A DNA stretch of 59,467 nucleotides from a virus. Of the stretch, positions 47,118 through 54,369 are shown one piece after another. The stretch lies in IMG/VR virus record IMGVR_UViG_3300040770_000066, positions 1-59,467 of that record. One strand, written 5' to 3'. The notes below the pieces were generated by a model. The model made no database searches. It had not been told where the DNA came from and saw nothing but the letters and a program-made list of their open reading frames with translations. Position numbers and translations under genes: made by a program. Each line of letters begins with the position of its first letter. Within the stretch, counting starts at the first letter, position 1.

Positions 47118-48164
47118 ATGAAACAATATGGATTTATCTCCGACAAGTTAAGTAGAAGAGGTTTTATTAAAAAGGAAGATATTCTTGCTGTTATAACCCA
47201 AGAGGAGATTTTCAAGTTAGTTTTTAAAGAACTTCCTATAGAATTTAAATATGTAAAGTCCCCTTTTCGAGAAGACACTAATCCTGGATGTTGGTTTCAT
47301 TATAATATTGATGGTAAATTAAGATTTACAGATTTTGGTAATCCTGCCGTAATCAATGGCATATCTATGGGTAACATAGATTGCTTTGATTGCGTACAGG
47401 TTTACTTTAAACTTGCAAACTTTTATCTTACACTAGAGTTTATCTTTAATCACTTAATCAAAGGAAAAAATGTTGACACTGACAATAGAATAGAAATTCA
47501 GGTTCAAAAGAATGAAAAGAAGGCTGTAAAAATATTAATTGAACCTAGACTATTTAATTCAAAAGATGCTGCCTATTGGACTTCTTATGGAGTTAGTAAA
47601 GCACAATTAATAGAGGATAAGGTTTTCCCAATTTCAAGGTACCATGCTTTAAATACTAAATTTGGTAACTTTAGTTCTAGTTGTCCTGATATATCCTATG
47701 CCTACACAGAGTTCAAAGAAGGGAGGAAAAAACTATACTTCCCCCAGAAGGAAGGCAATAAAAGATTTCTTACTACCTGCAGTAAAGAAGATGTAGGTGG
47801 TACTACTTCCTTATCTTATGGTAAACAATTAATCATTTCTAAAGCCTATAAAGATTATAGAGTACTGAAGAATGAAGGTAAAAATGTCAAGTGGCTCCAA
47901 AATGAAGGCATGGTTCCTAGCTTAGATAACTTAACTGAGTTGGTTAAAGATTTCAAGAACGTTATTGTTTTCTTTGACAATGATGAGACAGGTATTAAAG
48001 CTTCCAAGGACATTACAGACATTATTAACTCAATTTCTAGAGGTAAGGCTAAATCTTTACATCTTCCTGAAAGATTGCTTAGTGAAAAGATTTCTGACCC
48101 TTCAGATTTATTCTTAAGGAGAGGTAAAGCATCATTAACTAACTTTTTAAATACTTTTACATAA
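47118..48164 (+). CDS. DNA primase with TOPRIM domain (DnaG-like)
   Basis: 348 aa. The N-terminal half has PFREDTNPGCWFHYNIDGKL, then FTDFGNPA, the DnaG RNA-polymerase-core pattern; zinc-finger cysteines are few. The TOPRIM part has LIISKAYKDYRVLKNEGKN, then KNVIVFFDNDETGIKASK, with the acidic D-x-D pair near residues 285-287. It makes RNA primers for lagging-strand synthesis with the SF4 helicase. It is followed without a gap by the uracil-DNA glycosylase gene. Confidence 0.82.
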   Translation: MKQYGFISDKLSRRGFIKKEDILAVITQEEIFKLVFKELPIEFKYVKSPFREDTNPGCWFHYNIDGKLRFTDFGNPAVINGISMGNIDCFDCVQVYFKLANFYLTLEFIFNHLIKGKNVDTDNRIEIQVQKNEKKAVKILIEPRLFNSKDAAYWTSYGVSKAQLIEDKVFPISRYHALNTKFGNFSSSCPDISYAYTEFKEGRKKLYFPQKEGNKRFLTTCSKEDVGGTTSLSYGKQLIISKAYKDYRVLKNEGKNVKWLQNEGMVPSLDNLTELVKDFKNVIVFFDNDETGIKASKDITDIINSISRGKAKSLHLPERLLSEKISDPSDLFLRRGKASLTNFLNTFT

Positions 48165-48912: not shown

Positions 48913-49779
48913 ATGTCAGAATCAAATACAAATGCTGTAGAGAATACTCCAGTTTCAAGAACTATTACTATTTATGCAACAAGAGGTAACTCAGAGCCTG
49001 TTGACATTATTTCATCTGCAGTTACTTGGGGAGATTTTATTCCTGAAGTAAAGAAAGCAGGTTACTCTGTAGATAAAGTGTTATGTACAGAAAGCCATAC
49101 AAGAATGGATTTAGTTAACAAATTAGCTATCTTACCTCTTGTAGACTTTACAATCTTTATTAGAAATAAAGAAACTAAGTCAGGTGCAACAGAACTAAGC
49201 TACAAACAACTTAGAGCTGCTATTGCTGGATTTATGTCTGAAGATTTTAACAGAGCAAAAGCTCACTTTGGTAACTACACTACTAAAACTACAGTTCTCT
49301 TAAGAGAATTGCATGCTTCTTATTCTCCTGCTGTTGTAGAAGAAGAGCAAGTGGAAATGAATGAAGTAGAAACTAATGTTGCTGATGTAGTTGAATCTGT
49401 TAAAGATTCTAAAGTAATCTACATTACTAACTCTGGTAGAATTGAAAAGATTTCAGCTTTACTTGCAGGTGTTACAGCTTGTACTACAAATGAAGAAGTT
49501 CTTGAAAGAATTGAAATCATTGAAGGAGAGATTGAAGGTCTTAGAGAAGCTGTTAATTCAGATGATACAGAAATTCTTATGGAAGCTGAAACAGCTCCTG
49601 TAGCAGAGGTTCCTGTCTTTGATGCTGAAGCTGAAGGGAGAGCTCAAGCAGTTGCAGAAGCTAAAGCTAAAGAAGAAGCTAAGATGGCTGAAGAAGCTGA
49701 ATTAGCTAGACTTGCAGCAGTAGCTAAGCAAATCAGAAAAGATGCTTTGGCTTCTCAAGCTAGAGAGTTAGGTTTATAG
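48913..49779 (+). CDS. Ubiquitin-like protein precursor with long C-terminal extension
   Basis: 288 aa. Residues 15-91 look like a ubiquitin-like domain: strand SRTITIYATRGN, helix TWGDFIPEVKKAGYSV, strand and loop VDKVLCTESHT, and the final strand VDFTIFIRNKETKSG. A KSG at residues 89-91 closes the domain, as in other phage/PRTRC-type UBLs. The extension (92-288) has a helical, glutamate-rich region and an alanine-rich end. Cleavage by the JAMM peptidase at 50947 after G91 would expose a C-terminal glycine for transfer. It is the first gene of the cassette and has its own terminator downstream. The function of the extension is unknown. Confidence 0.6.
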   Translation: MSESNTNAVENTPVSRTITIYATRGNSEPVDIISSAVTWGDFIPEVKKAGYSVDKVLCTESHTRMDLVNKLAILPLVDFTIFIRNKETKSGATELSYKQLRAAIAGFMSEDFNRAKAHFGNYTTKTTVLLRELHASYSPAVVEEEQVEMNEVETNVADVVESVKDSKVIYITNSGRIEKISALLAGVTACTTNEEVLERIEIIEGEIEGLREAVNSDDTEILMEAETAPVAEVPVFDAEAEGRAQAVAEAKAKEEAKMAEEAELARLAAVAKQIRKDALASQARELGL

Positions 49780-49804
49780 TAATTTGCAATTTATTTATAT
49801 AATC

Positions 49805-49838
49805 AAAAGTGAGAGCAGAAATGTTCTCACTTTTTTAT
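49805..49838 (+). terminator. Intrinsic terminator between UBL and E2-like genes
   Basis: AAAAGTGAGA / TCTCACTTTT, 10 bp perfect, 10-nt loop, then TTTTTTATTTTTT. It splits the cassette so that the UBL precursor gene, but not the enzymes, gets most transcripts, as expected for a consumed substrate protein. A partial read-through terminator is possible. Confidence 0.85.
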
Positions 49839-49847
49839 TTTTTAACT

Positions 49848-51068
49848 ATGAATATAACATCAAATTTTAATTACAATGAAAGAAGGCTAGGTCTTCCTTT
49901 AGATAGAATAGTACATTCTGCTAGACTTTTGTCCTTAACTAAGGATAAGAAATGGTTACATAAAATTATAGATAGAGGTTTAATACGAACTTGGGATGAA
50001 GGTATTATTGTAGAAAGTGATTCACAAAAAGATAGACTTAAAGCTTTTATTGACATAATGATAGAAGGTTTTTCTAGAAGATATGGAAACAATTGGGATG
50101 TACACTTATCAAAAGTAAACAATAGACAGTATACCATAAATTTCTTTACCATATTTCCTAGTACTACTATCACTAATAGAGATGGAAACAGTCATGTTAT
50201 TAAGGATTTAATAGTTCTTTTTCCTATTGCTTGCTCAACGGATGATAACTTTTATATCACTAGAATACAAGGTGGTAGAGCTACTTATTATCAGAAAGAG
50301 CTAGATAATCAATATTCTCACAGCCATTTAAGAAGTAGTGTTTCTGGGATTTCAGTAGATGAGCCTTTCTATACAAATGACTTTTGTATTGGAGCAGGTG
50401 ATTTATCTTTTCTAGAAGGTGTATTACGTAATAATTTTAATGTCAGAGACTTAGAAGCTTATCTTTATGAAATAGATGCTACAATTCAATGGGAAAGTAT
50501 TGAAGGTACTCCTTATAAACATATTAGAGACCTTACTTCTACTAGAAGTAGTATTGTAAGAGAAGGTTCTTATAGTGTTTCAGGTTTTACTAGCAATTTC
50601 TCTAATGATTTAGATGTAGACTTCTATATTAGTAACAATACCTATAAGATAAAGTTCAATAGTACTTTTAAAAGTTTTATAAGAAGTATTTTAGACCAAA
50701 ATCTTAGTGAATATGGTTCATTACGACATGACATACTATGTGTTTATAATCCTGTAACTAGAAGGTATTACAGAGCAGAAAGTTCACAAACACAAGAAGG
50801 CTACATTCCAGACATTCGTACCTATGGAGGAGAAAATGCTTACACTATTTACAATGGTCAGAAAAAGTATTTTTCTATCAAAGCTACCCCAATAAGAGCA
50901 AATGCTCCACAAGAAGTTTATATTATTTACCCTAAATTCTTAAAAGATGTCCACACCCAATTTGAAAAATTACTCCACGAAAAAACCGTTAGACAAAGTG
51001 CAATTAGCAAATATCATTCCGCTGAATATCAGTCTTCCTATTCTACACAAAATTCAGTTTCTTTGTAA
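49848..51068 (+). CDS. E2-like conjugating enzyme (prokaryotic type)
   Basis: 406 aa from the ATG at 49848; an in-frame upstream start at 49809 lies in the terminator and is not used. Residues about 115-190 resemble prokaryotic E2-like domains: strand KDLIVLFPIACS, then QYSHSHL (H158, H160), then FYTNDFCIGAGDL with C180 as the candidate catalytic cysteine. The histidine and cysteine spacing follows the YxHxHL ... CxG pattern described for bacterial E2-like proteins linked to JAB and E1 genes. The C-terminal 200 residues are beta-rich and unassigned. The last 122 nt overlap the JAMM gene in another frame. Confidence 0.5.
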   Translation: MNITSNFNYNERRLGLPLDRIVHSARLLSLTKDKKWLHKIIDRGLIRTWDEGIIVESDSQKDRLKAFIDIMIEGFSRRYGNNWDVHLSKVNNRQYTINFFTIFPSTTITNRDGNSHVIKDLIVLFPIACSTDDNFYITRIQGGRATYYQKELDNQYSHSHLRSSVSGISVDEPFYTNDFCIGAGDLSFLEGVLRNNFNVRDLEAYLYEIDATIQWESIEGTPYKHIRDLTSTRSSIVREGSYSVSGFTSNFSNDLDVDFYISNNTYKIKFNSTFKSFIRSILDQNLSEYGSLRHDILCVYNPVTRRYYRAESSQTQEGYIPDIRTYGGENAYTIYNGQKKYFSIKATPIRANAPQEVYIIYPKFLKDVHTQFEKLLHEKTVRQSAISKYHSAEYQSSYSTQNSVSL

Positions 51069-52128
51069 AAGTATACCAAAAGTAGAATGGTCAGGTGTAT
51101 TATTTTACTCTGTAACAGGAAGTATTAAAGACCCGACTAACTTTAAAATTGAAATTGAAGATATATTACCTTTAGATGTAGGTACTTCAGTTTTTACTTC
51201 CTATGATTTAGATAATAGATTTATTGATTATCTTATGGAAGACCCTAAAAGAATGAAATTTAAAGTAGGTCACATTCATTCTCATAACATTATGAGTGTA
51301 TTCTTTTCAGGTACAGACATGGAAGAACTAAATGACAGTGCTTCTGCTTACAATTACTATCTTTCTTTGATTGTAAATAACTATATGGACATGACAGCTA
51401 AAGTAGCTTTTGTTGCTAATGCTACTGCTACTATACAGAAAGTAGACTATGTTTCATTAGATGAAAATGGTAAGCCTTTTAGCATGTCACAAAAGGACTT
51501 TACTTTTGAGAAAGAAATTCTTTATATGTATGATTGTGGTATTACAGTACCTAGTATAGATATTGTAGTAGAAGATAGTTTTGCTAAAAAAGTGGCAGTT
51601 TTATTGGTACCAAAACCTGTAGTTAAACATGTTCCAATAAAACCTTTAATTCCTGTAGTAAATAGAATTCTTCCTGTGCATACTCCAAAAGGAGCTCCTC
51701 AATCAAGTTTAAACAAGTATAAAGATTTCTTTAGTGGTTCTGAGTTTAGTTCTTTAGCTGATTTAATAGATGATGAAGATGATGAAGACTATGAAGAATC
51801 TGCTGAGAAACTACTTAGTTTTGCTACTTCTCTTTTTAGTAACTCTACTCAATTACTTTCAGATGAAACATTAGATGAAGTTCTATTGTCTTTACTTGAT
51901 ATGGAAGTAGACCCTACAGACATTGCTAAAAAAGTTCTAGATGTGTATGCTACTAATTACAGCAATCAGTTCCCTGAAAAAGATGATGTAGATTTTATTG
52001 CAGACACTTATGAAGTCTTAGATATTCTATATGATGTGCCAAGTGCACTTACAACACTTACTAACCCAACTATCAGAGTTATAGAAATGATGGTTAAAGC
52101 TTTTCAATCAGATGCAAGAACAGTTTAA
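50947..52128 (+). CDS. JAMM/JAB1-type metallopeptidase
   Basis: 393 aa. The JAMM zinc site is complete: E47 in VEWSG, H111 and H113 in GHIHSHN, S121 and D124 in SGTDMEEL, with the exact spacing H-x-H-x7-S-x2-D. The catalytic domain is residues 30-185. The rest is Val/Pro-rich linker (residues 205-245) and an acidic helical C-terminus (LADLIDDEDDEDYEE). JAMM enzymes cleave isopeptide or peptide bonds after ubiquitin-like proteins. Here the likely substrate is the UBL precursor. The first 122 nt overlap the E2-like gene, and the end overlaps the E1 gene by 17 nt. Confidence 0.8.
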   Translation: MSTPNLKNYSTKKPLDKVQLANIIPLNISLPILHKIQFLCKSIPKVEWSGVLFYSVTGSIKDPTNFKIEIEDILPLDVGTSVFTSYDLDNRFIDYLMEDPKRMKFKVGHIHSHNIMSVFFSGTDMEELNDSASAYNYYLSLIVNNYMDMTAKVAFVANATATIQKVDYVSLDENGKPFSMSQKDFTFEKEILYMYDCGITVPSIDIVVEDSFAKKVAVLLVPKPVVKHVPIKPLIPVVNRILPVHTPKGAPQSSLNKYKDFFSGSEFSSLADLIDDEDDEDYEESAEKLLSFATSLFSNSTQLLSDETLDEVLLSLLDMEVDPTDIAKKVLDVYATNYSNQFPEKDDVDFIADTYEVLDILYDVPSALTTLTNPTIRVIEMMVKAFQSDARTV

Positions 52129-52789
52129 TAGATTTAAAGACGCACCTTGGTTCCCTAAAGATAGGGAATCTGTATTAATTGGTGGCGCAGGTGGTATAGG
52201 AAGTTGGTTAACTTTCTTTCTAGCCAGAATAGGTTTTAGTCCTATTGTTTATGATTTTGATACCATTGAAGAACACAATCTTGGAGGTCAACTTTTTAGA
52301 AAAGAAGATGTTAACAAGCTTAAAGTATTGGCATTAGCTGATATTACTAGAAGTTTTTGTAATACAGAGATAACTACTTTTACTGAAAAGATAGACTTAG
52401 ACTCTCCTACTCATTACTTTATGTTCTCAGCTTTTGACAACATGAAAGCCAGAAAAGATGCTTTTGAAGTATGGAAAAGAAGTATTCCAAATTGTCCTGT
52501 AACTCCTATCTTTATTGATGGTAGATTAGAATTAGAGCAGTTACAAATATTTGCAGTAACCCCTAATAGAATTGCAGAGTATGAAGCTCATTTATTTGAT
52601 GACAGTCAAGTAGAAGACTTACCTTGTACGCTAAAGCAATCCTCTCATACTGCAGCTATGATTGCTTCTCACATGGTTGGTACATTTACTAATCATATTA
52701 CTAACTTGTATACAAGAAGAAATATTAGAAGTGTTCCTTTTTATTATGAGTTCTATACTCCTATGGCATTAACAACTTTAAATGATTAA
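52112..52789 (+). CDS. ThiF/E1-like UBL-activating enzyme
   Basis: 225 aa. Rossmann nucleotide loop GGAGGIGSW (residues 24-32), then YDFDTIEEHNLGGQLFRKED with D48, N56 and Q60, and K69 further on: the adenylation motif of ThiF/MoeB/E1 enzymes. LPCTLKQSSHTAAMIAS gives the candidate catalytic C172, as in PRTRC-type ThiF proteins. It would adenylate the glycine end of the UBL and transfer it to itself and then to an E2. Small size fits a minimal, single-domain E1. It starts inside the end of the JAMM gene. Confidence 0.8.
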   Translation: MQEQFNRFKDAPWFPKDRESVLIGGAGGIGSWLTFFLARIGFSPIVYDFDTIEEHNLGGQLFRKEDVNKLKVLALADITRSFCNTEITTFTEKIDLDSPTHYFMFSAFDNMKARKDAFEVWKRSIPNCPVTPIFIDGRLELEQLQIFAVTPNRIAEYEAHLFDDSQVEDLPCTLKQSSHTAAMIASHMVGTFTNHITNLYTRRNIRSVPFYYEFYTPMALTTLND

Positions 52790-52792
52790 ATT

Positions 52793-53800
52793 ATGTTAGA
52801 AATACATACTGAGACATATGGAAGTTTTGATAGGGATAACAGTAAGCCTGCTAATCTTGTTAGTAATAACTTCTTTCCTCTTATATCTATTAATTGCTTA
52901 AGAATGGAAGGTAATCAAGAAGAAAATTTTACGCAGACTTATTACAAACCTAGCATAACATCTTCAGTTAGAACTAAGGCTTCTTCTAGTAAAAACATTT
53001 TACATAGTTTAAATGACGAAGCTCAAGTCACAAAGTATCTTTTTGGAGATAAAGTGTATTATATTAACAAAGGATTGGTAACAGACTCATTGGGTAAAAT
53101 TTTACTTATACTTACTATTAAAAAAGAAGTTTTAGTAGAGTACGATTACTTAAAAAGAAATACTTTTCATCACACTCATGCTAGATTTAGCTATGATAAC
53201 TTTGTTTTGTTTATTTCTAGTGAGATGTCCTGTAACCCTTTACATTCAGTATTTTACAGAAGAATACAAAAAAATTACTTGAGTTTTTGCTACGAAAAAG
53301 GAATGGAGGTACGTACAGTACCTTCTTCTGTAATAGAAAAGAATACCTTTGCAAATTCACTTAACCTAAGATTTAACTCTATTACAGAGTTAGACTACCA
53401 CCTTAGAAATGAAGTAAAGTATTTCTTAAATGCTGATGAAGGAGAATCTGTAACGCGTGCTCTACAAATTAATATACCACCTGTAGACATGGAAGAAGAT
53501 GTGGAAGTACTGAATGAAGCATCTAATGTGTCTAATGTAGAAGCTGTACAAGAAAGAATATTAGAGTTACAAGATTTAGCTACTGCTTCAGTTGGAGTAC
53601 CTGCTTCATATCTTAATGACAGTACTGATAGTGTAACTTCTGGCTATATTTCAGGAATTGATTATTACAATAATCAAGTAACTACTTCTTCTTCAATAAG
53701 TACAGATAGTATAATGGCTATGTCAATGGCTATGAATACTGCAGTTAGAACACCTACAGTTGAGCCTGTAGTTGTGGATGATGATATTATAGAATTTTAA
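52793..53800 (+). CDS. Unknown protein linked to the UBL cassette
   Basis: 335 aa, 3 nt after the E1-like gene. The first 220 residues are a mixed alpha/beta domain with HHTHARFSYDNFVLFISSEM (two close histidines and cysteine-containing segments). Residues 235-335 are acidic and low-complexity (VEVLNEASNVSNVEAVQE, serine/threonine-rich end). Possible adaptor, substrate or ligase-like component of the conjugation pathway, but no RING, HECT or other ligase signature is seen. Function unknown. Confidence 0.6.
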   Translation: MLEIHTETYGSFDRDNSKPANLVSNNFFPLISINCLRMEGNQEENFTQTYYKPSITSSVRTKASSSKNILHSLNDEAQVTKYLFGDKVYYINKGLVTDSLGKILLILTIKKEVLVEYDYLKRNTFHHTHARFSYDNFVLFISSEMSCNPLHSVFYRRIQKNYLSFCYEKGMEVRTVPSSVIEKNTFANSLNLRFNSITELDYHLRNEVKYFLNADEGESVTRALQINIPPVDMEEDVEVLNEASNVSNVEAVQERILELQDLATASVGVPASYLNDSTDSVTSGYISGIDYYNNQVTTSSSISTDSIMAMSMAMNTAVRTPTVEPVVVDDDIIEF

Positions 53801-53841: not shown

Positions 53842-54369
53842 ATGACTTACATGGGAATAGGAAAAATAAATAAGATGATGGGGAGTGAAGCAGAAATTAT
53901 GTACTCTTTATTCTTTAAGGATTTAGGCTTCAGAAACTGTATACCTTCTCGTCATGTTAGTGCTAAGCATGATAATGCTAAAATAGATTTAATGAATATA
54001 CCTTTTAATGTACAAGTTAAAGCAGGTAAACAAACAAACATGAATCCTGGGAAGGAGTTGTTGTCAATGCAACATTGTATTGACCTCATGTTTGATGATG
54101 ACGATGCTATAACATTAAAACCTAACATACTGATTCATTACATTACAGTAGAAAAGGACAAAGAAAGGTTGCCTGAACATGAGATAGTTTATATGTCATT
54201 ACAGCAATATGATTACTGGAGAAGTATGGGTTCAAAACTAGAATATCTTGGAATGAGAGAATTTAGGTTTGAACTAAACTCTGAATTTAAGACCATTGTG
54301 TGTGTGACTTTAGAAGTTTTTAAAAAAGAAATCATAATAAAACATTATCAGAATGGTAATAATAACTAA
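53842..54369 (+). CDS. PD-(D/E)XK endonuclease, Holliday-junction-resolvase-like
   Basis: 175 aa from the ATG at 53842 (a TTG at 53827 gives a longer form). The motif KIDLMNIPFNVQVKAGKQ at about residues 45-62 supplies the D ... Q-x-K catalytic set of restriction-endonuclease-fold and resolvase-like nucleases. FRNCIPSRHVSAKHDNAK before it is the usual lead-in. It probably resolves recombination or replication intermediates. It overlaps the RecB-like gene by 17 nt. Confidence 0.65.
   Translation: MTYMGIGKINKMMGSEAEIMYSLFFKDLGFRNCIPSRHVSAKHDNAKIDLMNIPFNVQVKAGKQTNMNPGKELLSMQHCIDLMFDDDDAITLKPNILIHYITVEKDKERLPEHEIVYMSLQQYDYWRSMGSKLEYLGMREFRFELNSEFKTIVCVTLEVFKKEIIIKHYQNGNNN

Follow-up and report, generated by a model that had tools for sequence, protein, structure and literature searches.

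A ubiquitin-like gene cassette of crAss-related phages in the post-primase slot of rIIA-rIIB

Genes of the cassette and their products

The window, the whole stretch of DNA that was analysed, is 59,467 bases long (IMG/VR virus record IMGVR_UViG_3300040770_000066, positions 1-59,467). Five consecutive plus-strand genes lie at 48913-53800. They encode a precursor with a ubiquitin-like (UBL) domain, an E2-like protein, a JAMM metalloprotease, an E1-type activating enzyme and an unknown protein, X; the coordinates agree with those of the original prediction. There is good support for reading these genes as one complete system of the UBL type. Three features are new here. The cassette occupies the slot behind the primase gene which holds rIIA-rIIB in related phages, and the two never co-occur in the phages examined. 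In addition, a tail follows ...KSG in every UBL; it can be 1-5 residues or a domain, and it marks the predicted JAMM cut. The third feature is a terminator-like hairpin behind the UBL gene, present at most loci. All features described below are on the plus strand.

The gene order is highly conserved. A search from the E1 profile returned UBL-E2-JAMM-E1 in 79/79 loci with room for it, a count which includes both the window and the near-identical L009. Starting from JAMM, E1 is next in 69/70 loci, E2 precedes in 76/77 and UBL is present in 76/76; in the two exceptions the missing neighbour gene is found within ~1.3 kb. Starting from the primase, 32 loci have all four genes, one has three (at a contig end) and 19 have none. 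Homologues are thus not scattered without their partners, which favours one system. Pairwise distances of the four cassette proteins correlate mutually and with those of the primase (r 0.56-0.79). Adjacency and overlap had been the original argument for a single system, and the overlaps are real (122 nt between E2 and JAMM, 17 nt between JAMM and E1); all-or-none presence, fixed order, invariant catalytic residues and the ubiquitin fold of the UBL now point the same way. An ORF of 160-460 aa directly follows E1 in 74/75 loci. In the window this is gene X (52793..53800; phrog_15446, 1.7e-16), which probably belongs to the unit despite its fast divergence. A contig scan for cellular homologues found only two metagenome-assembled contigs with a phage-type E1, L100 (Clostridium sp.) and L101 (Spirochaetia); L100 is probably mis-binned phage DNA, since it contains the primase and the full cassette.

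The UBL precursor gene (48913..49779; phrog_15560, 8.4e-38) encodes 288 aa. Its beta-grasp UBL domain comprises residues 15-91 (48955..49185) and ends in ...KETKSG, with the Gly91 codon at 49183-49185; a helical tail (49186..49776) follows. The AlphaFold2 (AF2) model has a mean pLDDT of 84.5, with values >90 over most of the UBL domain. Foldseek searches of the PDB with this model retrieved mainly ubiquitin-fold domains, including FAF1 and UBXD7 UBX, Caldiarchaeum ubiquitin, ISG15 and SUMO2 (E-values 2e-3 to 3e-2, probabilities mostly ~1). The match to Caldiarchaeum ubiquitin has a TM-score of 0.66 (on target), an rmsd of 2.3 A and a probability of 1.00. PDB profile searches with the E2-like protein, the UBL and the JAMM gave nothing useful.

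The E1 gene (52112..52789) encodes a 225-aa enzyme of the ThiF type (Pfam ThiF, 7.7e-16) with Arg7, D48/D50 and a GxGGIGS loop. Both the Rossmann loop and the candidate cysteine C172 that had been picked out from the window (codon 52625-52627) were confirmed, and C172 is invariant in 66/66 E1s. In databases the protein is mostly annotated as 'thiamine biosynthesis protein', and once as 'E1 enzyme family protein'. An E1 relative with 30% identity is located beside topoisomerase genes in the Xanthomonas jumbo phage PhiXhv-12 (L008:7947-8630); UBL, E2 and JAMM were not recognisable at that locus by these models.

The JAMM/JAB metalloprotease (50947..52128; 393 aa) has exactly the site that was claimed for it, H111-S-H113-x7-S121-x2-D124, and also the upstream Glu47, which had gone unmentioned. 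E47, H111 and H113 are found in all ungapped rows of the alignment, and S121 and D124 in 63/63. Single sequences score weakly, but 52/63 of the proteins match Prok-JAB (best 1.1e-6). Database annotation is 'metalloprotease' or hypothetical.

The E2-like gene (49848..51068) encodes 406 aa from an ATG start; a GTG start at 49809 was dropped because a terminator-like hairpin sits there. The proposed H158/H160/C180 pattern holds in part. Among 64 sequences, S159, H160, C180 (codon 50385-50387) and G182 are present in 64/64, and H158, in 54/64, is not invariant. The AF2 model (pLDDT 85.9) has a helix at 58-79 and strands at 84-89, 95-109, 115-129 and 141-148, followed by H160, C180 in a Cys loop, and helices at 185-195 and 199-213. 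A UBC domain has its elements in the order seen in this model, and an E2 fold is plausible.

Precursor tail and terminator-like hairpin

In the 64 UBL sequences compared, Gly91 is conserved in 64/64, and S90 and K89 in 57/64 each. No UBL (0/64) ends at the conserved glycine; 11 have a tail of 1-5 aa (KSGK, KSGF, KSGE, KSGI and others), and in 53/64 more than 30 residues follow. Some of the longer tails have a counterpart elsewhere. Fourteen rIIAB-bearing contigs and cr116_1 have a stand-alone gene (78-160 aa) between the primase and rIIA, the product of which aligns to the UBL model beginning at position 83, just past KSG (1e-9 to 8e-5). A model made from these stand-alone proteins detects this domain in 21 UBL genes, where in most cases it begins at the junction; in crAss001 the junction reads KKIKSGA-MSRAEAY. 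What appeared to be a UBL in the 14 rIIAB loci is this stand-alone tail protein and not a UBL domain. Because the tail domain is a separate gene elsewhere, the UBL can be regarded as a module set before another protein, and a cut is expected at Gly91. This residue is the predicted mature C-terminus; the cassette JAMM is predicted to make the cut.

Pfam SAP is matched by 3/64 UBL precursors (best 3e-4), probably in the tail (in the window, for example, 49201-49320); by sequence, this hints at DNA binding by a released tail. Small ORFs of 41-56 aa are found directly behind a short UBL gene and before E2 in six loci (L070, L063, L062, L042, L075 and L053), and these are possibly the tail as a separate gene. 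At L086:3020-3943, an HNH/NUMOD4-like ORF stands between a short UBL (...KSGKF) and a tail-like ORF, perhaps through an intron or a gene fission.

The terminator that had been noted after the UBL gene is real. It is a hairpin with a T-run at 49805..49834, between the UBL and E2 genes (-16.9 kcal/mol, z -4.4). Hairpins of this kind occur in 54/70 UBL-E2 gaps vs 31/268 other same-strand gaps (p=3e-26, with gaps defined from ORFs and related loci not being independent), and their sequences differ. Since a terminator-like hairpin follows its gene, the UBL is probably made in excess over the cassette enzymes.

The post-primase slot and a proposed role of the cassette

The major head protein, portal and large terminase of the window phage match PHROG families (E <=1e-200). 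Its primase closely resembles the one in Flavobacterium phage FpV4, with Crassvirales (Steigviridae) primases as further relatives; NCBI does not place the FpV4 genus in Crassvirales, so 'crAss-related' is the safe wording. The primase gene (47118..48164; phrog_12622, 4.1e-90) lies outside the cassette and is the constant left border of the slot, being upstream on the same strand in 77/79 cassette loci. The right border in the clade of the window is a gene at 53842..54369, also outside the cassette. It is nuclease-like by eye, possibly a PD-(D/E)XK resolvase, and matches only PHROGs of unknown function. UDG was rejected as a cassette member; it is found before UBL in 27 loci and after E1 in 23, and is absent in 28.

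In five loci (L124, L134, L135, L141 and L159) the flanks are unchanged, with primase and UDG, a 53842-like gene and an exonuclease, and two genes replace UBL-E2-JAMM-E1-X. One encodes a GHKL-ATPase protein (HATPase_c_3, 7.6e-9), and tblastn matches of both products are annotated as RIIA and RIIB lysis inhibitors. The 53842-type gene directly follows rIIB in L124, L135 and L141. The same is seen within Steigviridae: in cr116_1, primase and UDG flank rIIA-rIIB, at the very place that gp79-gp75 occupy in crAss001; endonuclease genes split both the primase and rIIA of cr116_1 (L262, 832-4466). A scan based on rIIB yielded 52 loci for analysis, with the primase just upstream in 45. None of these 45 slot loci has an E1, E2 or JAMM. 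Searched over their whole length, 29 cassette records (some of them fragments) contain no rIIB and nine cassette-free records contain no E1. On a primase tree, which is a quick tree with SH-aLRT support only, the rIIAB label needs three changes, and two rIIAB groups are nested in cassette clades (branch support 98 and 96).

Mutual exclusion combined with repeated exchange is the pattern that non-orthologous displacement usually leaves, and on this ground the cassette is proposed to serve the need that rIIAB serves. In diverse phages the RIIAB proteins counter exclusion by RexAB, and where RexAB is absent they can be dispensed with (PMC11879866; also PMC8594841). The best explanation, and a reasonably probable one, is a reversible phage UBL-conjugation system which substitutes for rIIAB-type counter-exclusion. 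The precursor would be made in excess. The JAMM would cut after Gly91 (KETKSG|A), freeing both the tail and the UBL C-terminus; E1 would adenylate Gly91 and load it on Cys172, and the UBL would then pass as a thioester to Cys180 of the E2-like protein. The latter would attach it to a target, and the JAMM could later take it off again. On this view the cassette is an accessory module in a fixed slot. Its most likely job is that of rIIAB, since rIIA-rIIB fills the same slot in relatives and no examined phage has both: tagging of a host or phage protein would sustain infection in cells that otherwise exclude the phage by prophage or abortive-infection systems. The parts of this explanation differ in strength. 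The computations establish the genes and their order, the invariant residues, the UBL fold, the homology of E1 and JAMM, the conserved terminator, and the sharing of the slot with mutual exclusion; cleavage, thioesters, conjugation, targets and equivalence of function to rIIAB are inferred from these. Conjugation chemistry is likely. The rIIAB-like role is a strong lead, to be held tentatively. The fullest statement, that a full UBL pathway evolved in phages of the crAss-like lineage, with its tag fused to a phage protein and released by cleavage, and that it functionally replaces rIIA-rIIB, is a serious possibility which falls somewhat short of probable.

It should be noted that several observations weigh against this explanation. 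Foldseek gave no significant match for the E2-like model; the sole E2-fold matches in the top 50 are TSG101 UEV chains (best probability 0.54, E 0.097). The E2-like protein has no significant match to PRTRC_B profiles, and similarity of the UBL to PRTRC_C is not detectable by sequence. Gene X has no explanation in the proposed model. The correlation of cassette-protein with primase distances (r 0.60-0.79) looks more like that of a core module than of arms-race genes. Finally, the shared slot may merely be an accessory slot, with no common function of its occupants.

This last possibility, a permissive post-primase position where cassette and rIIAB meet by coincidence, is the strongest rival and may well be correct, though we consider it somewhat doubtful. 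Distant relatives do hold other genes there: in L166:8458-12144 (similar in L167 and L169) the slot contains a DUF2201 metallopeptidase/VWA protein (1.5e-18) and an AAA-like protein, a pair which constitutes a third alternative slot module. Coincidence does not readily account for the lack of any case with both modules among the 29 cassette records and 45 rIIAB slot loci, nor for independent swaps in two lineages; the second module could lie in the remainder of a 90-100 kb genome.

The UBL could also be conjugated to the replication or virion proteins of the phage itself, and so serve a core role in morphogenesis or in the replisome that has nothing to do with rIIAB. The location of the cassette in the replication module, directly after the primase in nearly all loci, is consistent with this, as are the tracking of primase distances by cassette proteins and the SAP-like nature of some tails. 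We consider it unlikely: the block is absent, and rIIAB present instead, in close relatives with ~50%-identical primases and the same flanks. Because the whole block is replaced in this way, neither replication nor assembly depends on the cassette in this lineage. The original prediction had left the choice between the phage's own proteins and host defence proteins; an accessory slot shared with a counter-exclusion system favours a host-side target over a virion target.

Another rival is a system for sulfur transfer or small molecules, of ThiS/MoaD or peptide-modifying type. The UBL would then be a JAMM-processed thiocarboxylate or peptide carrier, and the E2-like protein some other cysteine enzyme, for example in nucleotide or tRNA thiolation. 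In its favour, E1 is ThiF-like, with matches to ThiF and MccB, bacterial cysteine synthesis offers a precedent for a JAMM that trims the tail of a carrier, the E2 fold is unproven and the C-terminal Gly is single. This reading is nevertheless improbable. Ubiquitin folds of eukaryotic type and from archaea are the best matches of the UBL model; the significant E1 matches include PRTRC and E1-E2 models; in the E2-like protein an invariant His lies upstream of the Cys, and the C-x-G motif is common to PRTRC_B; and no sulfurtransferase gene was recognised beside the cassette.

Until now, discussion of ubiquitin-like systems in bacteria has centred on host defence and on cassettes of plasmids. A complete set, kept by vertical descent in a major gut and aquatic phage group, would reverse that picture. 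The carriers include the cultured crAss001 and Flavobacterium psychrophilum phages, so the system can be tested with phage and host both in culture. Its slot, which rIIA-rIIB also uses, ties the cassette to the question of what rII does, among the oldest that phage genetics has left unsolved. If the proposal is true, viruses use ubiquitin-type chemistry as a counter-defence against bacterial exclusion systems.

Comparison with known systems

No description of the whole system, or of conjugation encoded by crAss-like phages, was found in the literature (supplements and preprints lay outside the search); the text of Yutin et al. 2021 on crAss-like genomes (PMC7886860) does not mention ubiquitin, JAB, PRTRC or metalloprotease. 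The original prediction had likened the cassette to the PRTRC and Bil systems. The first likeness holds for two of the enzymes and the second does not hold.

Among known systems, the cassette appears nearest to PRTRC (NCBIfam TIGR03735/03736 etc.; type 6d of Iyer et al. 2006), which is found on plasmids, and its E1 and JAMM are closest to PRTRC proteins at the sequence level. The PRTRC order C(UBL)-[F]-B(E2)-A(JAB)-ThiF(E1) matches UBL-E2-JAMM-E1. E1 is homologous to PRTRC ThiF by hhalign (99.2%, 1e-19), and a full-length alignment puts phage Cys172 on an invariant PRTRC cysteine, the C-terminal part not being significant alone. The top NCBI models for E1 are ThiF types and PRTRC_ThiF (9.9e-8, below the curated membership cut-off). 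PRTRC_A is matched by 30 JAMM relatives (best 3.2e-4, below the NCBI curated membership cut-offs), and by the JAMM in a profile-profile comparison (1.3e-6 over HSH-x5-FFSxTD). Both systems share the FFSxTD signature of PRTRC_A, the C-x-G signature of PRTRC_B and a UBL with a conserved C-terminal Gly. The similarity of the E2-like protein to PRTRC_B is confined to C-x-G; at 0.026 when trimmed, it beats off-target comparisons and is not significant. Iyer et al. 2006 (PMC1779556) describe type 6d as a UBL ending in Gly, an E2 with a downstream His, and a JAB. In the phage E2-like protein, unlike in PRTRC, the His lies upstream of the Cys. All 64 phage UBLs have a tail, whereas 5/9 PRTRC_C proteins end exactly at Gly. 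The phage cassette has the additional gene X, its UBL and E2 have no sequence-level match in PRTRC, and no window ORF matches the ParB-related, E or F proteins. Full PRTRC membership was therefore rejected, given the lack of ParB, E and F and of profile homology for B and C.

Bil (BilABCD) is an ISG15-like anti-phage system with the same component types, UBL, E2, JAMM and E1. Its gene order is also that of the phage cassette. Membership was rejected, since BilD reaches just 0.046 and no BilA, BilB or BilC model was matched (PADLOC); moreover, Bil is a bacterial defence locus whereas the cassette is phage-borne in a replication region. The E1 Rossmann region also resembles E1-E2 models (1.4e-7), as in Cap2/Cap3 of type II CBASS. 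In the phage, unlike in CBASS, E1 and E2 are separate genes with no fused Cap2, and a dedicated UBL is present. T4 rIIA-rIIB, the counter to RexAB, has the same post-primase slot in related phages and is mutually exclusive with the cassette, but consists of unrelated proteins (a GHKL ATPase and RIIB) with no ubiquitin-like chemistry.

The tailed precursor also has eukaryotic counterparts. In ubiquitin-ribosomal protein fusions the modifier is the N-terminal part of the fusion and is cut at its Gly, and UFM1 is a single-Gly UBL with a short tail. UBA5, the UFM1 E1, is the best PDB match of the phage E1 (3.7e-13 with the 66-row profile). Unlike these modifiers, the phage UBL is encoded by a virus, and the enzyme that cleaves it would be the JAMM of the same operon.

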